DNA of 64,000 nucleotides from Neisseriaceae bacterium (GTDB taxonomy: Bacteria; Pseudomonadota; Gammaproteobacteria; Burkholderiales; Neisseriaceae): contig CP046107.1 of assembly GCA_016864895.1 (NCBI GenBank), positions 744,001 to 808,000 of the forward strand. The letters are read 5' to 3'. Shown one piece after another: positions 2,882-62,059 of the stretch. Position 1 is the first letter of the stretch. Every line of letters starts with the position of its first letter. The position numbers and the translations under genes are program-made. The notes beneath the pieces were generated by a model. It was not told where the DNA came from, did not search any database, and saw only the letters and a program-made list of their open reading frames with translations.

Positions 2882-4252
2882 CATGCTCGCCGTAAGACCC
2901 TCATCCTTCAGGGCGGGGATATAAGGCGTCACCACGAAGTGGTTATTCCGTCTTTTAGTGTCTATGCTATCTTATTGACTATTCATAGTTCATTAGTATA
3001 ATCAAGACATGCAAATCAAAAAAGCTTTTAAATTTGAGTGAATACCTAATGGTGAACATATTCGCAAAATGAAGCAGTTTTGTGGTTGTTCTCGTTTTGT
3101 ATTTAATCATGCTTTAGATTGTCAGAATAAGCAGTATGAGGCTGGTAACGGTTTCAAATTCTGCTACAGTAAAATATCGAGCTTACTACCTAAATGGAAA
3201 GATGAGTTCAAATGGCTTAAAGATTGCCATAGTCAAGTGTTACAACAATCCTTAAAAGATCTAGAAGCCTCTTTTCGGAATTTCTTTGCCAAACGTTCTA
3301 GTTTTCCTAAGTTTAAGAAAAAGGGATTGAAAGAAAGCTTTAGATTTCCCCAAGGTGTAAAACTAGAACAAGGTAACAACCGTTTGTATTTACCCAAAAT
3401 AGGCTGGGTAAGATACCGTAATAGTCGTCATGTCATTGGTTCGATTAACAACGTTACCATTAGTCACAAGTGTGGAAAGTGGTATGTTGCTATACAAACG
3501 GAATATGATGTTGAACCACCAATACCATTAGGTAATGAAGTGGGTATAGATATGGGGATTACCCGTTTTGCAACTTTAAGTAACGGTCAATACTTTGAGC
3601 CTATCAATAGTTTTAAAACGGCACAACGTCAGTTAGCTAAATTGCAATGTCAAATGAGCCATAAGAGGCCATTGAGTCACAACTGGAAAAAAGCAAAAAA
3701 TAAAGTATCACGCTTACACTCGAGAATAGCCAATATTAGACGTCATTACCTTCATCAACTCTCTGCTCAAATTAGCAAAAACCACGCCATTGTGTATGTA
3801 GAAGATTTGCAGGTTGGTCACATATCTAAGTCTGCAAAGGGGGATACGACTCATCCTGGTAAAAGAGTAAAGCAAAAATCGGGATTAAATCGTTCTATGC
3901 TAGATCAATCATGGTATGAATTTAGAAGGCAACTGGACTATAAACTGTTATGGCGAGGAGGTCATTTAGTAGCAGTGAATCCTAAGAATACCAGTCGTAC
4001 TTGCCCACAATGCGGGCATATAAGTGCACAGAACCGTCAAACGCAATCAAACTTTGAATGTGTTGCATGTGGATATAAATTAAATGCAGATGAGGTTGGA
4101 GCGATAAATATATTAAGGGCAGGACGTGCCCGGTTAGCCTGTGACGTGAATGATGCAGTAAGGTCATCAGCAACAGGAACCCACCGAAGTGAGTTAGCAA
4201 TACTGCTAAACACCGTAGGAATCCCTGCCCTTTAGGCCGGCGAGGACGTCAA
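2882..4252 (+). mobile_element. IS200/IS605-type element carrying only tnpB
   Basis: The element is about 1.37 kb. It has a TnpB gene, no TnpA transposase, and subterminal hairpins instead of terminal inverted repeats: a CCTTCAGGGCGGGGA-type structure at the left (about 2897-2920) and CCCTGCCCTTTAGG at the right (about 4222-4236). The right boundary is set after GTCAA, matching the TCAA cleavage motif known for IS605-family right ends. The left boundary is set after TTTAT at 2877-2881. Removing exactly 2882-4252 rejoins the flanking coiled-coil gene in frame, which independently supports both ends. There is no target duplication, as expected for this family. The right hairpin has diverged from the usual GGGCGGGGA form, suggesting a decaying copy. 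Confidence 0.8.
3009..4235 (+). pseudogene. tnpB: RNA-guided nuclease TnpB (OrfB), interrupted by an in-frame TGA
   Basis: TnpB proteins are reRNA-guided RuvC-like nucleases that favour retention of IS200/IS605 elements. The family start is the ATG at 3009, giving MQIKKAFKFE and then a TGA at 3039-3041; the frame then continues, in phase, with IPNGEHIRK. The longest open part starts at Met 3069 and has 388 codons. Numbered from there, the catalytic residues are present: Asp161 (GIDMGITRF), Glu245 (VYVEDL) and Asp341 (NADEVGAINI). The zinc ribbon has Cys312/315 and Cys331/334. The nuclease core is therefore preserved and only the first 20 residues are lost if translation restarts at 3069. The 3' end runs into the right-end hairpin. 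No tnpA is present, so movement would need a transposase in trans. Confidence 0.85.
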
Positions 4253-37643: not shown

Positions 37644-38810
37644 ATGAGTATAAAAAATCTAAATATTGCAATAACGGCTGGTGAACCATCTGGCGATTTG
37701 CTTGGTTCCTATTTGATAAGTGCTTTAAAAAAAACATACCCTAATGCTCATTTTTTTGGTATTGGTGGACCTTTGATGATCGATCAGGGTTTTACCAGTT
37801 TCTTTAAACAAGAAAACTTAGCAGTAATGGGTTATTTTGAAGTGGTAAGTAAATTACCCAAAATCCTGTTGATTAGAAAACAAATCACTAACATTATCTT
37901 AAAAAAAAAACCAGATATTTATATTGGTATCGATGCACCGGATTTCAATTTTAAAATAGAACAAAAGGTTCATCGACAAGGGATTCCAACTATTCATTAT
38001 GTCAGTCCATCTGTGTGGGCTTGGAAATCTAAAAGAGTAGAAAAAATCATACAATTCACAGATAATATTCTATGTCTTTTCCCTATGGAACCTCCTATTT
38101 ACCACAACAAAGGAGGAAATGCAATTTATGTGGGACATCCTTTAGCCAATCAAATTTCTTTAAATATTAATCAACTGGATTCAAGACAATTACTCAGTTT
38201 ACCTAACAACATTCTAGTTGCCACACTTATGCCTGGTAGCCGTGAAAGTGAGATTAAATATATGGCACCATTATTCTTGGAAACCGCCAAACAACTATTC
38301 GAAGCCTATCCTTCAATTCAATTTTTTATGCCTATTAATAACCAAAAGAATCAGGATCTCATTCGAAAGATAATCCAAACAAAGAAATTAGACTTCCTCC
38401 CAATTCGATTAATAACTGAAACTGACAATAAGTACAATTATCTAGCAGCCTCTAATGTTGCTTTAGTCGCTAGTGGCACTGCCACCTTAGAGGTTGCTCT
38501 ATGTAAATGTCCTATGGTTATTAGTTATATCATTTCTCCTATAACCCACCACTTAGTTAAACCATTCATCCAGACCGATACATTTGGACTGCCTAATATT
38601 CTTTTACAAGAACGGGTAGTACCTGAATATATTCAAGAGAATGCAACAGCTGACAACTTATTTAAAGCCTGCCAAATTTACCTCGATAATCCTAAAAGAT
38701 GCCAAGAAGTTATTCAAAAATTTTATCAATTGCATCAAACATTAAGGCAAGACTTTCCTACAATTACTACTCAAGCGATATCGAAAATACTCCATCAAAC
38801 AGAGCAATAA
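37644..38810 (+). CDS. lpxB: Lipid-A-disaccharide synthase
   Basis: LpxB condenses UDP-2,3-diacylglucosamine with lipid X in lipid A synthesis; a peripheral membrane GT19 enzyme. The 388-residue protein has AGEPSGDLLGSYL at 11-23, YVSPSVWAWKSKR, ATLMPGSRESEIKYM and ASGTATLEVAL. Length is normal. The stop touches the alaS stop on the other strand with no spacer. The other lpx genes are not present here, unlike the lpxD-fabZ-lpxA-lpxB cluster of many proteobacteria. Confidence 0.97.
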   Translation: MSIKNLNIAITAGEPSGDLLGSYLISALKKTYPNAHFFGIGGPLMIDQGFTSFFKQENLAVMGYFEVVSKLPKILLIRKQITNIILKKKPDIYIGIDAPDFNFKIEQKVHRQGIPTIHYVSPSVWAWKSKRVEKIIQFTDNILCLFPMEPPIYHNKGGNAIYVGHPLANQISLNINQLDSRQLLSLPNNILVATLMPGSRESEIKYMAPLFLETAKQLFEAYPSIQFFMPINNQKNQDLIRKIIQTKKLDFLPIRLITETDNKYNYLAASNVALVASGTATLEVALCKCPMVISYIISPITHHLVKPFIQTDTFGLPNILLQERVVPEYIQENATADNLFKACQIYLDNPKRCQEVIQKFYQLHQTLRQDFPTITTQAISKILHQTEQ

Positions 38811-42981: not shown

Positions 42982-43938
42982 ATGAAAACCATTCAATCTA
43001 ACTTAATTTTATTTTCTGTTCTTATATCGTTGAGTAAATTTAACTTTTCTCATACTTATTTACTACCTGATATAGCAGTCTCTGAAACTGAAAATCATAT
43101 TGTGATTAATATTCCTAATGTACGACTTTATGTTTATAAAGAAAAAATTTATGATATTGATTACCCAATCGCTGTAGGGAAAGGTCTCAGCCAAACGCCA
43201 GTTGGAAATTACCAGATAGGTGTTCGAGCTCATAATCCAACATGGTATATACCATTGAGTATTCAAAAAGAACGCAAACAAAAAGGCCTCGAGGATGTTA
43301 AAAAAATCCTACCCGGTGCTGACAACCCATTAGGCCCTCTGTTTATTCGCTTCGGGGAAAGTGAACTTGGTCTTGGTATTCATGGAACTAATGTTCCTAG
43401 TAGTGTTCCAGGTATTAGGAGTCATGGGTGCATACGCATGAAAAATGAAGATATTATTCAATTAGATAAGAAAATTAAAAAAGGTGACTTTGTTAGTATA
43501 ACTTATCAACTATACGCTCTAAATCTGGATGACAATAACCAGCTTTGGTTCCAAAAATACCCCAACCCATATAAACTAGAGGATCAGAACTTACAACAAA
43601 TTAAGACCACATTAAACTTATGGGAACAAGAAACAGGTCAACTCATTGATAAAGTGAAACTGAGTCAAGCATTAAAAAAATCTCAGCCTAAGCCAATTTG
43701 TTTAACCTGCACTCAGAAATTCCCCAAAATATCAGGGAAGCTTCAATCTATTGCGTGGACTGAAGGTAAAATAGAAATTCGAGCTACTGAGTACTCAAGA
43801 ACCATGGATAAAATGAAAATAGATGAGTTTCTTTTTAATCCCATGATCAAACTTCCTCAAAGTATTTGGGAGCCTAAACCACAAAAAACAGTGGATGATC
43901 TCAGTAATTCTATTGAAAAAATAGATAATTTATTGTGA
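42982..43938 (+). CDS. L,D-transpeptidase (YkuD family), exported
   Basis: A 318-residue exported enzyme of the ErfK/YbiS/YcfS/YnhG type that forms L,D-crosslinks in murein or attaches proteins to it. An N-terminal signal segment (LILFSVLISLSKF) leads into the YkuD domain: IPNVRLYVY, AVGKGLSQTPVG, then IHGTNVPSS with His134, and the catalytic RSHGCIRM with His148 and Cys150. The C-terminal region of about 150 residues has no clear family; it includes a CLTC pair. It stands alone, with long gene-poor gaps on both sides. Confidence 0.92.
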   Translation: MKTIQSNLILFSVLISLSKFNFSHTYLLPDIAVSETENHIVINIPNVRLYVYKEKIYDIDYPIAVGKGLSQTPVGNYQIGVRAHNPTWYIPLSIQKERKQKGLEDVKKILPGADNPLGPLFIRFGESELGLGIHGTNVPSSVPGIRSHGCIRMKNEDIIQLDKKIKKGDFVSITYQLYALNLDDNNQLWFQKYPNPYKLEDQNLQQIKTTLNLWEQETGQLIDKVKLSQALKKSQPKPICLTCTQKFPKISGKLQSIAWTEGKIEIRATEYSRTMDKMKIDEFLFNPMIKLPQSIWEPKPQKTVDDLSNSIEKIDNLL

Positions 43939-44880
43939 CAATGAACATCTCTTTCATATGAGTCAGGCGAAAATTCCCTGTTGAAAAATTAATAAAAGGT
44001 AATTTGTTAAAATATTAACTTTATTTATTGTTTAACCCTAGGAATACTGGTCAAATTTCTACAAAAATAGGATGAAGGTAAAGATGAATTTTCTTTCCTA
44101 GATCTCACTGAAAATTCAAATAATTGAATTATTGTTTATACTTTAATATGGTATTGTTCGCTCTTGATCTGCCATCAGTAACCATTAAATGTTGGTAGTG
44201 ATTAAAAGCTAACGGTAACCAATACTATTATATACACTCTATCAGTGAGGCGTAACTACTTTATTTTGACAAGAAAATTATTATTGTTGCTATTCAATGA
44301 TCAATACAGTCTGGCTTCATGCACATACCACACTTTAAGAGAGTTTAGGCTGTAATGATATCGACCTCTATGTGAGTGTCACCAATCATAATGATTCGCT
44401 TGTGACTGAGTATTAAAACCATCAACATCCCCCCATTATAGGGTGATCGATACGTTTGGGTAACAATAATATTTTTTATGTCAAAGTAACATTTCAAAAA
44501 ACTTTGTTGAACAAAAAAATTAAATAAACATCCTAATATGTCGGACATCCACAATGGGTAACCTCTCCATAAATTCATCAAAAAAAAAAAAAAAAAAAAA
44601 AAAAAAAGAAAAAGATACTGGTTCAGATACGATTTTTTTGGAGCCACAAAATAAGTAGCTTGACCATACTAGAAAAGAAAATCTTTTTTTTGGATCAATA
44701 GGATGGTAACAATAGTAAATTTAAAACCGTATTAAAAGATCCACAAATATTTATAAAATATTTATAATAGACAAATATTCATAAATAATTTAAATATTCC
44801 GACAGAGTTAAGAAAATCATAAAAAGTAAAAATATAGAAAATAAAAAAATTATAATAATCAATATTATATAAAACTTTAT
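43939..44880. other. Gene-poor gap with a 28-A homopolymer
   Basis: About 940 bases without a supported gene lie between the L,D-transpeptidase and the hisE remnant. The most striking item is an uninterrupted run of 28 A's at 44580-44607. A minus-strand frame across it is only open because the run reads as poly-Phe and is not called. Confidence 0.6.
44580..44607. repeat. Homopolymer tract A28
   Basis: Twenty-eight consecutive A's (T's on the other strand), far longer than any other homopolymer in the window. Such tracts are slippage-prone and can be phase-variable, but here no gene or promoter is clearly attached. A consensus or assembly error is also possible. Confidence 0.95.
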
Positions 44881-45094
44881 TGTTTTCAAAAAAATTGGTT
44901 GGATAAGCTGGATAATTTTTGAATACATCAAAAAATAGCAAACTCACTTATCTTAATAAAAATATCAGATTTATTATTCCGCAGCATGGTATTTTAAGTT
45001 ATCATAACAATTGTCACCGAGAGAGACATTATTGACCGAATTAGAAACCGAAGCAAAATGCTTTTAGAATAGCAGAAAAAGCATCTGTAAATTG
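44881..45094 (+). pseudogene. hisE: Remnant of hisE (phosphoribosyl-ATP diphosphatase)
   Basis: No intact frame exists, but pieces of HisE appear in the right order in shifting frames. FKKIG starts near 44885. KISDLLFRSMVF (44959-44994) matches the family's E-x-S-D-L-L-x-H-x-x-V-L-L helix. LSYHN and then [15 protein letters not shown] (45008-45052) match the LSPxDVLxEL segment. IAEKAS (45069-45086) is the near-terminal EKASR motif. At least three frameshifts and several stops separate them. The position also fits: hisE lies just upstream of tatABC in many betaproteobacteria. HisE catalyses the second step of histidine biosynthesis, so this copy is dead. Confidence 0.7.
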
Positions 45095-45110
45095 TAACCT
45101 AGGAGAAAGA

Positions 45111-45311
45111 ATGGGTAGTTTAAGTATATGGCATTGGCTAGTTGTAGCACTGGTAATTATATTGATCTTTGGAACAAGTAAATTAAAAAATGCAGGCAAG
45201 GATTTGGGTTCGGCTATTCACGACTTTAAGAAAGGTCTCAATGGAGAAGAAAAACCTAAAATAAAAGGAGACAATACTGCACAACCAATAGAGGATGATA
45301 GCAACCAATAA
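45111..45311 (+). CDS. tatA: Sec-independent protein translocase subunit TatA
   Basis: TatA oligomers form the conduit of the twin-arginine pathway for folded proteins. The 66-residue protein has one membrane helix ([13 protein letters not shown]), the hinge [14 protein letters not shown], an amphipathic helix continuing to AIHDFKKGL, and a short polar tail. A TAGGAGA ribosome site precedes the ATG. It is the first gene of tatABC, 23 bases before tatB. A short hairpin (ATGCTTTT / AAAAGCAT, 45058-45084) in the old hisE sequence lies in its leader. Confidence 0.96.
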
Positions 45312-45334
45312 CTCTGCTAACAATATATAATTTT

Positions 45335-45790
45335 ATGTTTGATTTAAGTTTTGCTGAAATATTAGTTATCCTCATTATTGCACTTGTTGTTTTAGGCCCT
45401 GAAAAATTACCAAGATTTGCACGCTTCATAGGCAGTACAGTCAATAAAGTGAAAAATTTCAGCCATCAAATCCAGTCAACACTAATAGAACAAACTGAAG
45501 ATATAAAAATCAATCATTTTAGTCAATCAATTAAAGAAAGCATGGATGACTTTACTCAACAGGTCAAAAAGGATTTTTCTGATCTACGAAATGATCTCCC
45601 GACTATGCCGGAAAATCTTTTGTTAGAGGAAGAATTATCTGACGATACAGATTCAAGATACATCGATAAGCCAGTAATTAAATCCTCTTTACTAAATAAA
45701 CGGAGAAAAAGCCAACGTAACAAATACAAACAACAAATAAGTTTTAATAAAAAAATATCTCAATCTAAAATAAATCGTCATCTAAAATGA
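45335..45790 (+). CDS. tatB: Sec-independent protein translocase subunit TatB
   Basis: TatB forms the substrate receptor with TatC. The protein has 151 residues. The N-terminal helix (MFDLSFAEILVILIIALVVL) carries the conserved Glu8, followed by the LGPEKLPRFARFIG hinge and amphipathic helix. The rest is a long charged helical tail rich in Lys and Asp. It lies between tatA and tatC, and its last codons overlap the tatC start, so translation is coupled. Confidence 0.96.
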   Translation: MFDLSFAEILVILIIALVVLGPEKLPRFARFIGSTVNKVKNFSHQIQSTLIEQTEDIKINHFSQSIKESMDDFTQQVKKDFSDLRNDLPTMPENLLLEEELSDDTDSRYIDKPVIKSSLLNKRRKSQRNKYKQQISFNKKISQSKINRHLK

Positions 45791-46539
45791 GCAAACAACA
45801 CAAAGATCTAAAAAAATATAAATCGTTAACCGAACATTTAATTGAGTTACGATCAAGATTGATTAAAATTATTCTGGTCATAATTATTTTGATTATTACC
45901 CTTACCCCTTTTTTGCATCAAATCTTAACCTACGTCACACAGCCTATGCTTGCCTCTTTGCCTGAAGGTAATAAAATGAGCATCACAGGTGTTTTAGAAG
46001 GAATTATTGTCCCTATTAAAGTATTATTAACAATGGCCTTCATTCTCTCCTTACCTTTCACTTTGTATCAAATTTGGGCTTTTATTGCACCAGGACTTTA
46101 TAGAAAAGAAAAAAAAGTTGTATTCCCTATTCTACTTTCCAGTTTTTTATTATTCTTTTTGGGGATGGGTTTTTGTTATTTTATATTTTTCCCAGCACTT
46201 TTTACTGTTGCCTCTACTTTTACTCCTGGAGATGTTGCTTATTATGTTCCTACTATCAATAACTATATTTCGTTCATTTTAACTATGTTTTTGGTTTTTG
46301 GGCTAGCATTTCAAGTCCCAATTGTAATGTTTGTACTAAATACAATGGATATCGTTTCTAGACAACAGTTTAAAGATTTCAGAGCTTATGCCATTATTGC
46401 TGCTTTTACTATTGCTGCTATCACTACACCTCCAGATATTATTTCACAATTTTTCTTGGCAGTCCCTCTGGTTTTATTATATGAGTTAGGTCTGGTTACC
46501 TGCAGATTTAATAAAACTACCCAATCTACCCAGTTTTAA
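45787..46539 (+). CDS. tatC: Sec-independent protein translocase subunit TatC
   Basis: TatC is the six-span core receptor recognising twin-arginine signals. The 250-residue protein shows LTEHLIELRSRLIK at the N terminus, YQIWAFIAPGLYRKEKK with the conserved loop glutamates, and FGLAFQVPIVMFVL in the later spans. It ends with TPPDIISQFFLAVPLVLLYE. Its ATG overlaps the tatB stop. It is convergent with mltD. Together with tatA and tatB the system looks intact. Confidence 0.97.
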   Translation: MSKQHKDLKKYKSLTEHLIELRSRLIKIILVIIILIITLTPFLHQILTYVTQPMLASLPEGNKMSITGVLEGIIVPIKVLLTMAFILSLPFTLYQIWAFIAPGLYRKEKKVVFPILLSSFLLFFLGMGFCYFIFFPALFTVASTFTPGDVAYYVPTINNYISFILTMFLVFGLAFQVPIVMFVLNTMDIVSRQQFKDFRAYAIIAAFTIAAITTPPDIISQFFLAVPLVLLYELGLVTCRFNKTTQSTQF

Positions 46540-46547
46540 AATAACCA

Positions 46548-47951
46548 TTAACGACTTGACTTCTTGATATTTTGAATCTTATTACTTTTTTTAATCATTT
46601 TAGGTGACTTAATTTTTTTATTTTTTTTATTAGATACCTTAACAATACCACTCATCCTTGATTTGTAATTAGAAAATTTACTTGATTTTCTATAAGCAAT
46701 ACTTTTATTTTTAGAAAAAGATACAGGTGATTCAAATTCATTTAAACTGAGTATTGAGAATTGATCTGAAGGTAATTCGGAAATGCTATCACCTTTTGGA
46801 ACTTTAAAGAAAACAGTTTTCCCAGCAGGAATAGTTCCTGAACTAAAATTATTATAACCATGTAAATCTTTTACAGAAATGTTAAGTACCTTTGATATTT
46901 CTCCAATGGGTTGAGCATTCCGTAGTTTCAAGGCATACCAGTTCGATTGATCTTTCTTCACCATAAGATTATAGTTGTCAAAAAAACGACGATAACTACT
47001 CCTCGGTATTAATAAATTACGATTATTATTTGGTATATAAATAGCCGCTTTATAGCTAGGATTAAGGTTTTGAATCTCAGATAATGGAACATTAGCCAAC
47101 TGAGCTATAGTATGTAATGCTATAGGATGACTAATTTTTACATTCTCAAAATAAGGCTTATTAATCAAATTAACTAAAGACAAATGATATGCCTTATGAT
47201 TTTTAATAATATTTCTTACTGCTAATAACTTAGGTACATAATTGGTTGTTTCTTTAGGTAATCTTAGATTATCAAAACTAGGCAATAAACCTTTTGCTTG
47301 CGCCTGATTTATAGCTTTTTGCACCCTATTTTCGCCTGCATTATAAGCAGCAATTGCCAATGACCAATCACCAAACAAACTATACAAATATTCTAAATAG
47401 TCTAGAGCAGCCATAGTAGCCGCATAAAAATCATCTCGACCATCATATAAGTTGGTTAAATCAAGTCCATAGCGCTTACCAGTTGCTGGCATAAATTGCC
47501 AAATGCCCTTTGCCCCTACATGGGACTTAACACCAGGGGTAAAACGACTTTCTATAAACGGTAACAAAGCGATCTCACCTGGCATATTTCTTCTTAACAC
47601 TTCTTTGATGATAAAATGCATATAAGGTGCACTTCTTATTAAAGTTTGATTAAAATATTCAGGATGTGTGATAAAGGATTCTTCATATCTTCGGATCAAA
47701 TCAGGTCGAACATCATCAACATGAAACATCTTAGTTAATTGATTAATTAAGTTAAGATCAATATCTTGAGAATTAATATTTTTATTTAATGGTTGTGTAT
47801 TTAAAAAAACAATATACCCCTCTATATTCTCAGATATCTCTCGATTTATGGCAGACTCTTTACTTATTTGTGTATTTGTTGCATAGTAATACTGGCTAAA
47901 CAATAAACCAAGCACAGGAACCCAATTTATCAATCTCCTGATCTGTTTCAT
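46548..47951 (-). CDS. mltD: Membrane-bound lytic murein transglycosylase D-like protein
   Basis: A 467-residue exported GH23 transglycosylase. The N terminus is a signal segment (WVPVLGLLFSQYYYA) without a clear lipobox. The catalytic glutamate is in LPFIESRFTPGVKSHVGAKG, followed by IWQFMPATGKRYGL and AIAAYNAGENRVQKA. After the catalytic domain come two LysM-like regions (around LNPSYKAAIYIPNNNRNLLI and WYALKLRNAQPIGEISKVLN). The last 45 residues are a strongly basic Lys/Ser tail, perhaps binding teichoic-like or nucleic polymers; that is speculative. It lies 31 bases downstream of rho on the same strand. Confidence 0.92.
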   Translation of the reverse strand: MKQIRRLINWVPVLGLLFSQYYYATNTQISKESAINREISENIEGYIVFLNTQPLNKNINSQDIDLNLINQLTKMFHVDDVRPDLIRRYEESFITHPEYFNQTLIRSAPYMHFIIKEVLRRNMPGEIALLPFIESRFTPGVKSHVGAKGIWQFMPATGKRYGLDLTNLYDGRDDFYAATMAALDYLEYLYSLFGDWSLAIAAYNAGENRVQKAINQAQAKGLLPSFDNLRLPKETTNYVPKLLAVRNIIKNHKAYHLSLVNLINKPYFENVKISHPIALHTIAQLANVPLSEIQNLNPSYKAAIYIPNNNRNLLIPRSSYRRFFDNYNLMVKKDQSNWYALKLRNAQPIGEISKVLNISVKDLHGYNNFSSGTIPAGKTVFFKVPKGDSISELPSDQFSILSLNEFESPVSFSKNKSIAYRKSSKFSNYKSRMSGIVKVSNKKNKKIKSPKMIKKSNKIQNIKKSSR

Positions 47952-54650: not shown

Positions 54651-55504
54651 AAATTTTTAACCTACTAATTTTGAATTTGGGTTACTAGCATCATCTCAAT
54701 ATATTATTTCATCATACTGGAATAAGCTGGTTCTAAGAATAAATCCGTAGAGTAACTTTGGCTACAGCTTCTCATTTAACACTCTAAACTCTCATCACTT
54801 TGAGCTGTATTTATCTTGAAAGGTTAACACCTAGTGCTTGATACAATTGTCCTAAACCATCACTTTTCTAGCAACTGCTAATATCTAATAATCAGTAGCA
54901 CTAAACTAATGTACCTTAAACATTTTTTCACCCAAGACATGTTTAATCAAATACAGCCCGTATGAATGGCATTTAATTCCTTTCTCATGGCCAAAGTAAT
55001 CCTTAAACGATTACTAATATACACCAATCATAATTAATACCTAATTACCAGTATCACTTATCATGTATCTAAAATTAGAATAACATCAATAACTTCTAGA
55101 AAAAATTCAGAATATTGTTGCACTCCTTAAGAACATGATAATAATGAATAATTTAAAATTATCGGAATAGTCAATATTGGTAAAATCATATATACTAAAA
55201 TCAAAAAATAACCTATAAAATTAATAGACAGAGCATCTATATAAAGAATTTCTCAACACTGGAAACACTACTGACCTACTCCCGTCGTAATCAATCACCC
55301 TAGAACCAAACTCGAACAAATGGTAATAACACTATGGCAATTAAACATTCAACCTCAAATGAATCATGTATAAAATCTTAATTTATTTAATTATTACACA
55401 TAAAGAATATAAAGTTAAGCAACAAAAATACCTTTTCTGCTACTTTCATGAGATAATTGTCCTGAGCATTTTTTTGACCAGCTCAATTTAATTTAGGATA
55501 TCAC
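54651..55504. other. Gene-poor gap between the NlpC/P60 gene and xseB
   Basis: No supported gene in about 850 bases. On the minus strand 55010 down to 54906 is open and protein-like (KDYFGHEKGIKCHSYGLYLI, then HVLGEKMFKVH to a TAG), without a start. It may be the tail of a lost gene; family unknown. The xseB promoter was not resolved. Confidence 0.4.
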
Positions 55505-58391: not shown

Positions 58392-58827
58392 CAAAACCCT
58401 CCCTCCATATTTTTATCAAATTACCAATACCACGTATTCAAGATATAAAATATTAAATTGTGAACTTTTTTATCCCTAAATTCTTAAAACTTCTAATCCT
58501 ACAATCAATCTATGGTTACATAACGTAACCTTACCTCATCTAACTTAATGATTTTATTATAAAGTATAATCTGAAAAATAACATCCTATTCAGTCTCCAA
58601 TTTATTTTTTAATCTTATTAATTTTAATAAAATCAAACATATATAACAAAAAATAAATATACTTTTTTTCAAAGGTAGATAAAATAGCACTCAACTCATT
58701 TAATAAAAATGTTACTAATCACTATTTTCAACCAAGTTCGATCAGAATTAGAAAATTAATTTAAGAACAGGTACGATAAAGATAAAAAATAAGTTATTAA
58801 AATTGTCAGAATTAAGAGGCATCATCT

Positions 58828-59005
58828 ATGACGAAAAAAATTAGTATTTATCACTATATTGATGTTAGGTACAAATGTAACCTGTACTAGACTTTACGTA
58901 AAAACTGGGAAATACTACTCCTCCCGGCAGAATAGCCAGAGTAATCTTTTGATTTTTTATTGGATTGATCAACTCCTCAATAAAGTATACGCCAATATCC
59001 AATAA
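58828..59005 (+). pseudogene. Small secreted-protein gene with a frameshift in an A7 run
   Basis: ATG at 58828 follows AAGAGG and reads MTKK into an A7 run. With seven A's it shifts into a short stop-ended frame. With six A's it would read KLVFITILMLGTNVTC, a signal-like segment, and continue through TGKYYSSRQNSQSNLLIFYW to a TAA at 59003, a 58-residue product. The length to that stop is one base too long for a single frame. It may be phase-variable or dead. Family unknown. Confidence 0.4.
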
Positions 59006-59060
59006 TTATACATAGTAAATGATCCCACTCTGCAAACCCTAGACTTGAGAGTGAGGGTAT

Positions 59061-59382
59061 TCATTTGAATAGGTGAAAAGACTGATATTCTTTTGCCTTC
59101 TGGGAGATAATGTCCAAAGTGGTATTAATACAATCCTCTAAAGATGCAAAAAAATGATTTTCATATATATTGAAATCACTATCGTCTATCCAAAAAGACT
59201 CTGATACTCTAACATCCTCATCCTGATCTGTTACTAGGATTAAATCAAATACTTGTTTTTTGCTTAAAACACAGAAGTATTGATTTTTATCGTTTTTATA
59301 TATCTAGTTTGTAGTTTGAGGCATCATGACCTAAATCTAAAAAAAATGTAATAGATTTAACTAATTCATTATATTCGATCAT
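59061..59382 (-). pseudogene. Immunity-like small acidic protein gene, single-base frameshift
   Basis: ATG at 59382 with GGA seven bases upstream opens MIEYNELVKSITFFLDLGHD and reads to ASNYKLDI before a stop. One base out of frame the sequence continues KNDKNQYFCVLSKK, DLILVTDQDEDVRVSESFW and FFASLEDCINTTLDIISQKA to a TGA at 59061. Total length is 322 bases, exactly one base more than 107 codons, so a single insertion (near the T5 runs at 59283-59298) broke it. Small, acidic and next to a toxin-like remnant, it resembles immunity proteins of polymorphic toxin systems; the family was not recognised. Confidence 0.55.
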
Positions 59383-59422
59383 TAGTTATCCAGACATAGG
59401 TGTTTATTTTTGATATACGTAT

Positions 59423-59653
59423 TTAAAACAACGACAATGTTTTTTTGACGTGTGTGTCACTTGGCTTAATTTTATCTACACCACATTTTGCTTCTACACA
59501 AGCATTTTTTTTAAGTTTTCCCTGTACCTTTTCCAAAGACAAAAATCATTTCTTCTCTACCATTTTTTCTTGTACCCTCCATTTGGCATGTATATGTTTG
59601 GAAAAACTAAAGTGAGTGTAAGTAAAAGGCAATAAATATTTCTTAATCATCAT
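59423..59653 (-). pseudogene. Toxin-C-terminus-like remnant with an in-frame stop
   Basis: From ATG 59653 the frame reads MMIKKYLLPF into SKHIHAKWRVQEKMVEKK, meets a TGA at 59546-59548, and stays in phase through LEKVQGKLKKNACVEAKCGV and KIKPSDTHVKKTLSLF to a TAA at 59423. The basic composition and the EAKCG motif resemble nuclease-type C-terminal toxin domains. The end lies 40 bases before the start of the acidic immunity-like gene on the same strand, the usual toxin-immunity order. The N-terminal delivery part is absent. Confidence 0.4.
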
Positions 59654-59677
59654 GATTTACTTTGGTTCACTCATCGG

Positions 59678-59702
59678 TGCCTAGTGCGCCCAACACTAGG
59701 CA
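59678..59702. repeat. Perfect 9-bp hairpin upstream of the toxin-like remnant
   Basis: TGCCTAGTG pairs with CACTAGGCA around CGCCCAA. It is GC-richer than its surroundings and has no T-tract. It could be a recombination-site or element-end relic. Confidence 0.6.
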
Positions 59703-60190
59703 TCACTTGTTTTAATGTAACATAAAATCAAAACTATATGAATAAAACTTTCAATAAAAATATGGAATTCTATGAATAAAAAATTGAATAATTAAACAAA
59801 ATATTTATACATATATGGGGAAATGACCTGAATACAAATCAAACAAAGATGCAACAAAACTTACTAAATATTACGAAAACATTATGACAGGAATAAGCAA
59901 CATAACTTATATGGAAACATACGAATATATTAGGTATGGTTGTAACATTAGAAAATGAAAAGATAAAAGAGGAACTAAACTAACATATGTATTCCTATAA
60001 TCCATTTTTAGAAATGATCCGAACTCATTAAAAATGAACATACCATGGAAGCTTAATTTTAAGAAAATAAATCAAATTCGCCAAAAATAAATTAGCCATA
60101 ACAAACAATTGAAAAAATTTCCAAAAATTTATTCCAAATATTGGAAGATAAGTTTCCCACTCTACTTAAACATTTCGACCAATTACATTA
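59703..60190. other. AT-rich gap before pssA, no gene seen
   Basis: About 490 bases of AT-rich sequence with frequent stops in all frames; no ribosome sites with convincing frames and no terminator of standard form for pssA were found. Confidence 0.5.
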
Positions 60191-60937: not shown

Positions 60938-62059
60938 AATAAACTCATAAATAATTATTTTAATTAATTTTTTATCCTTTTAAAAAACTGCTTTTAGTCG
61001 ATCTACTTATCTCGAAATCAATATTTAATCCAATAATTAATCCATTGTTGGATGATCCTGTAAGTACGCTCTTTTGCAACACTACATTCTCTACTTTAGT
61101 GAGTTTCATTGTAAAGGATGATCTAATAAATAACAACCTACACAGATCTCTTTCAAAATATGATTAATACTATCTTATAACACATACGATTACTATCTAA
61201 TAAATACGTGTTATAAAGAATGGATATATCTTTTTTTTTTAGAAAGTAATAATAAATTCGTTTGATATATTAAAACCGATATATGAGAACCGATATATTA
61301 AAATCAACTGTATCAATTAAAATACCAACCATATTTTCTCATATTATCCAAAATAGAAAAATTATAGCCCTTAAAAAATATAGAACAATTGATCAAATTA
61401 ACCAACATATTAGTAAAACTTAGGCTATTCACACTAATAAAGCCCTTAAATTATCAAAATAACACACCAAATCTCTAGAGTTTTTATATAAAAATTTTCG
61501 TATCTTGATACTTTAGATTTCTGTTTCTAACTTATCTCTCCCGACCCTTAAATCCAATGCACACATCTGAGATTTTATAAGTAACCATAAACTAAAAAGT
61601 TTTTAAATGCAACTAGCCAAAAAACTTACAGTCAACTTTTTTATCGCCCTCTAATCAGAAAAACACCTAAAATGAAACCTGCATTAATTCTGACAATACA
61701 ACAAAAAAATTTCTAAATTTTTCTCTTAATTCATGTATTTATTTAACATAATAACTAATTTAATTAATATTTCCTTATTTTTGTCGGATCCTATTTTCTC
61801 TAATTGCCTTGTAATCCATTCAAGTCAAACGAACTAATACCACCCCGAGAACAGGGGATCTTTCCAATGTTTTAATTAGGGTACTATTTACCTATCAGCT
61901 ATTTAGCGCCATCAACTTCATAAGCAACAATACACAATAGCCTCCTGTCCTTAGTTAAGGTCAACAAAAATCAAAAGCACTCTCTTGTGCTTTTAGTTTT
62001 CCTAACTCATTATTCAAGCTATTACAAGCCATGCGTCCAAAACTAATTATACAATCTGA
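60938..62059. other. Long gene-poor gap between psd and pssA
   Basis: About 1.1 kb with no supported gene. The stretch is very AT-rich in the middle (61200-61760). Near the right end a minus-strand 23-codon frame (MACNSLNNELGKLKAQESAF...) overlaps the psd terminator and is not called. pssA and psd are often adjacent in relatives, so this gap may hold a deleted gene or inserted and decayed DNA. Confidence 0.5.
61973..61994 (-). terminator. Rho-independent terminator of the accD-psd side
   Basis: The stem AAAAGCAC / GTGCTTTT has a six-base loop and is followed on the minus strand by GATTTTTG. It lies about 65 bases past the psd stop. Confidence 0.75.

Follow-up and report, generated by a model that had tools for sequence, protein, structure and literature searches.

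The stretch of DNA analysed here (the window, 64,000 nucleotides) covers positions 744001-808000 of a genome assembled as a single contig of 1,607,491 bp (GCA_016864895.1). According to the available text of PMC12175528, this assembly belongs to the Neisseriaceae symbiont HaMa of the louse Hoplopleura acanthopus, collected from Microtus arvalis, and the genome is likely that of this rodent-louse symbiont. The same text gives Polyplax serrata from Apodemus flavicollis as the louse host of the symbiont Neisseriaceae bacterium PsAf. A third louse symbiont in this group, N206 of Neohaematopinus pacificus, is named in PMC9376444. PsAf is a member of the same genus and the closest relative. In the window, an interval of 1,172 bp lies between an intact ykuD-domain gene and the intact tatA, and the flanks are collinear with PsAf on both sides. 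At this place PsAf carries ykuD-hisF-hisI-hisE-tatA-tatB-tatC, all open, in the same order and with the same flanks as in the window; the hisE stop is followed by the tatA start after 14 bases only. The interval almost certainly holds decayed remains of hisF and, from hisI, the 3' end, together with nearly the whole of hisE; these genes are intact in PsAf and would have eroded here after selection had lapsed. The features are listed in Table 1.

Table 1 Features of the ykuD-tatA region and remains of other his genes. Positions are those of the window unless another locus is named; residues refer to the PsAf proteins.
Feature	Position	Strand	Description
ykuD-domain gene	42982-43938	+	Intact upstream flank, PF03734; PsAf ortholog precedes hisF
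hisF debris	43973-44294	+	PsAf HisF residues 7-129
28-A run	44580-44607	+	Within the dead his stretch; no A or T run in the window is longer
hisI 3' end	about 44701-44788 (end approximate)	+	DNA similarity only
hisE fossil	44781-45092	+	PsAf HisE residues 1-106 of 107; frameshift-aware alignment and blastn
FKKIG	44885-44899		HisE motif
ISDLLFRSMVF	44962-44994		HisE motif
LSPRETLLTEL	45011-45043		HisE motif
IAEKAS	45069-45086		HisE motif
tatA	45111-45311	+	Intact, PF02416; 82% identical to PsAf
tatB	45335-45790	+	Intact, PF02416; 70% identical to PsAf
tatC	45787-46539	+	Intact, PF00902; 80% identical to PsAf
hisA	other locus		Full-length wreck; 13 frameshifts, 3 stops; 0/60 shuffles as high
hisC	hisC-hisB-hisH locus		Wreck of residues 5-164; 6 frameshifts, 1 stop; 0/60 shuffles as high
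hisH	hisC-hisB-hisH locus		51 bp stub; residues 197-213 of 217
Broken hisZ-like gene	L148 1213-2348 (contig about 1435404-1436539)	minus	3 frameshifts, 1 stop over 380 residues, without shuffle control

The first-pass annotation had read a dead hisE just before tatA from four HisE motifs, and this claim holds. The four motifs are confirmed, with their order kept and spread over three frames, and the similarity to HisE in a frameshift-aware search is strong. The best path against PsAf HisE runs through 9 frameshifts and 2 stops in 312 bp and scores 109, a value reached by none of 200 dinucleotide shuffles (mean 27.2, sd 3.8, maximum 42) and, in a second shuffle control, by none of 60. With HisE queries from 29 further relatives, 25 beat the best of 40 shuffles each, those of L006, L016, L029 and L030 failing to do so. 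At the DNA level, positions 44888-45106 are identical to the PsAf locus in 158 of 224 columns (71%, blastn E=7e-18). Plain tblastn with PsAf HisE found nothing significant in the region (best E=1.3; none at 1e-2), a result to be expected where the frame is interrupted so often. The fossil thus has the marks of a pseudogene: similarity beyond chance, the same place as the PsAf gene and a lost codon-position pattern. A functional HisE was not found, there being no single open frame of about 107 codons, no ORF matching PsAf HisE and no match to PF01503 above the curated cut-off in this genome; nor did an intact hisE come to light elsewhere, the whole genome being without a PF01503 match.

The span first assigned to the pseudogene, 44881-45094, does contain hisE and is too short, since the wreck starts at 44781 and debris of hisF and hisI lies upstream. 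Calling the remains a dead hisE was accordingly right for that gene and too narrow for the debris, which comprises hisF, hisI and hisE. The hisF debris scored 87 in the frameshift-aware alignment (4 frameshifts, 5 stops), with 0/60 shuffles as high, and one piece of it, 44014-44124, was found by tblastn (E=4.9e-4). For the end of hisI the similarity lies in the DNA, where positions 44701-44832 match the end of PsAf hisI and the start of hisE (69%, blastn E=2e-5); for hisI alone at the protein level, 1 of 60 shuffles was as high as the real score, and plain tblastn gave nothing significant in the region. Nothing was recognised with confidence in the stretch from the hisF debris to the hisI end, and an Rfam search over 43000-47000 returned no family. 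Apart from the run of 28 A in this stretch, only two homopolymer runs of A or T in the window reach 10 bases, at 37901 and 61231, and neither is longer than that.

The location of the fossil fits that of hisE in relatives, where, as the first reading had supposed, hisE before tatA is common. A same-strand tatA lies downstream in 24 of 30 hisE loci (30 of the 56 PF01503 matches were examined), and 59 of 80 TatC loci have HisE (80 of 361 examined; the search for a same-strand HisE reached up to 4 kb upstream of TatC), counts in which some loci are shortened by contig ends and for which the script scored strand without printing positions.

The rest of the histidine pathway has fared no better. 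In PsAf, nine his proteins are named by NCBIfam: hisF, hisI and hisE are open at the locus described above, and the further genes lie at three places, as hisD-hisG, hisC-hisB-hisH and hisA; in the present genome they are wrecked or gone. A profile survey covered 61 genomes, namely this one and 60 relatives. Matches to PF01503 (HisE), PF01502 (HisI) and PF01634 (HisG) were each found in 56 of the 61, and to PF00475 (HisB) in 57, of which 56 were above the cut-off; the whole-genome profile search of this genome found none of the four. Some of these four families are missing from each of six genomes (G022, G024, G026, G034, G042 and G046); of the six assemblies, all but G046 are below 90% completeness or split into more than 200 contigs. 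PF00977 (HisA/HisF) matched in all 61 genomes. The one match in this genome lies in a frame of 503 codons, covers 43 of 228 positions at 22.8 bits (30.6 bits when frame neighbours are counted) and was rejected as a real HisA or HisF for being a short, weak piece.

HisD, HisC and HisH were examined here only at their old loci and in the compared stretches. Wrecks of hisA and hisC and a stub of hisH are recognisable (Table 1). The signal for hisB at its old locus is within chance (4/60 shuffles as high), and plain tblastn found nothing significant there. Beside the old neighbours of hisG, 39/60 and 9/60 shuffles were as high as the real score, and beside those of hisD 48/60 and 1/60, the last value being borderline; no trace of either gene is claimed, and tblastn for both over the two contig ends gave nothing below E=2. 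The neighbours of hisD-hisG sit at the two contig ends; on a circular chromosome, ~7 kb would separate them. The ~7 kb block (L131 2350-3491 and L132 1-5750) contains several long ORFs, is unlike the hisD-hisG locus of PsAf and resembles it only over 69 columns ahead of the following gene. In stretch L133, tandem Na+/glutamate symporter genes (558-1826 and 2914-4164) each have the same 51 bp dead hisH end in front of them; the PsAf stretch compared has a single symporter gene, against two here.

The first-pass annotation had further proposed that histidine biosynthesis was caught in the act of being lost. This part is not supported: the HisG, HisI, HisE and HisB families are without a match, and the other his loci are wrecked, stubbed or replaced. 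The codon positions bear on the age of the loss. Identity to PsAf at first, second and third positions is 86.1/92.6/61.8% in 12 intact genes, 75.8/83.5/70.4% in seven pooled fossil pieces (733 aligned bases) and 71.2/80.6/69.7% in the hisE fossil, the fossil values being from local alignments, which favour the best-preserved pieces. All fossil identities quoted are from blastn or strict local alignments, as loose global alignments inflate identity via many gaps. The G+C content of the hisE fossil is 23.8%, compared with 30.6% in PsAf hisE and 24.4% at the third positions of intact genes. The coding pattern has been largely flattened, and the break in hisE is not a recent one. The loss of the pathway is finished at these loci, with hisZ alone lightly broken, and the gene content suggests that this bacterium is likely no longer able to make histidine.

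HisZ is a regulatory subunit that resembles histidyl-tRNA synthetase. In both genomes the hisZ-like gene adjoins a gene named here as adenylosuccinate synthase. With 253.2 bits, the PsAf protein falls narrowly short of the TIGR00443 cut-off (271.65), and the name hisZ is ours; a second match in each genome is an open frame of 426 codons, named here histidyl-tRNA synthetase. Per kb of matched DNA, hisE has 29 frameshifts, hisA 19, hisC 14, hisF 12 (in its recognisable piece) and hisZ 2.6. This order suggests that hisZ broke later than the other his genes, although a longer period of weak selection would look alike.

Were the HisE motifs chance matches in AT-rich DNA, the silence of plain tblastn and the four HisE queries that stay within their shuffles would be readily understood; this explanation is refuted by a score that no dinucleotide shuffle reached and by the blastn match at the collinear place, which leave it practically no room. 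Sequencing or assembly errors might instead have broken an intact hisFIE, and the 28-A run in the stretch is of a kind that is error-prone. Such an origin is extremely improbable, however, as hisE has its 9 frameshifts beside 12 intact genes, the substitutions extend over all codon positions, the G+C content is lowered and four other his loci have suffered the same fate. A loss of the pathway still in progress today is suggested by the few breaks in hisZ, and is very unlikely in view of the missing HisE, HisI, HisB and HisG matches, the heavy shredding of hisA, hisC and hisFIE, and the lack of any trace of hisB, hisG and hisD where these were sought.

It is also conceivable that the dead stretch was co-opted as a promoter-bearing leader of tatABC and for this reason was not deleted. 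The intact upstream neighbours of tatABC are lost, and on both strands of 43850-45400 there are 16 promoter-like sites compared with 9.8 (sd 2.8) in shuffles; a TCCACA-17-TATAAT promoter-like site lies at 44740-44768, and the scan of 43850-45400 found no terminator-like site. The excess of promoter-like sites is modest, however, the PsAf scan has no site at the matching place, and better conservation of one part of the fossil over the rest is not in evidence, so that co-option is rather unlikely. Since the excess is only modest, a promoter inside the fossil is not claimed. A fuller reading, in which the dismantling can be followed from the vanished hisG-hisD and hisB-hisH through the shredded hisFIE and hisA to hisZ as the last to break (perhaps owing to a second use), with the dead hisFIE now the leader that drives tatABC, is doubtful as a whole.

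Under the preferred reading, erosion after selection lapsed, the shared ancestor of PsAf and this symbiont would have had a complete histidine pathway. Histidine supplied by the host, or by the blood on which it feeds, may have relieved the pathway of selection, and the his genes would then have eroded under AT-biased mutation and deletion, with tatABC, at the end of that block, remaining under selection. Transcription of tatABC may start at the old upstream promoter and cross the 1.2 kb of untranslated wreckage, or it may start at a newer promoter within this wreckage. With regard to supply, PF00497 amino-acid binding proteins have no match in this whole genome, compared with two in PsAf, a pattern that runs opposite to the simple expectation that uptake replaced synthesis. 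A gene for an OPT oligopeptide transporter is open in both genomes (83% identical).

The loss of hisFIE is part of a general erosion, as other PsAf genes of the window are also missing. PsAf has 40 ORFs of 60 codons or more in the collinear 39 kb, and 12 of them lack a matching ORF in the window; one of the 12 falls beyond the window end, and the other 11 include hisF, hisI and hisE. Two of the unmatched ORFs are short, with 69 and 71 codons, and the other six resemble GNAT, LOG-family, lipoprotein, short-chain dehydrogenase, crcB and hflX genes (names assigned here).

Individual places along the window differ in what is left. A crcB-like remnant lies at 55098-55271 (tblastn 46% over 59 residues, E=2e-6); its counterpart in PsAf is an open gene. 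At 60966-62059, between two collinear neighbours, the hflX-like gene of PsAf has no counterpart. A stretch of ~1.8 kb (58400-60190) is without blastn similarity to the compared PsAf stretch, in which the flanking genes are nearly adjacent.

These symbionts were reportedly first described by Rihova et al. in Molecular Ecology in 2021. Among the literature matches listed, no title or start of an abstract concerned the his wrecks; the 2021 description and the supplements lay outside this search, and the loss may be reported. The word histidine is absent from the main text of PMC12175528 and PMC9376444, as far as that text was available.

The locus is a clear case of ordinary symbiont genome reduction, and one that can be read unusually well thanks to its intact collinear sister. 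PsAf and the present genome form a close pair of louse symbionts, with open his genes in one and ruins in the other, which lets gene-by-gene decay be followed locus by locus and raises the question of the fate of the export operon tatABC once its upstream neighbours die.

Two other Neisseriaceae in the survey (G002 and G010) are like this genome in being without a HisE, HisI or HisG match and in having no HisB above the cut-off. They differ in that no convincing HisE remnant precedes tatA in the 6 kb examined, a single 19-residue match (E=0.056) being found in G002. Their losses look like separate ones, since genomes of the same genus (G013 and G018) retain HisE. In the insect symbiont Sodalis glossinidius, whose genome is shrinking, the pseudogenes are, in the available text of PMC7067036, likewise frameshifted, drifting towards AT and kept for a while in a host-bound bacterium. 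Unlike in the case presented in that text, an intact collinear sister here lets each broken gene be read against its original.
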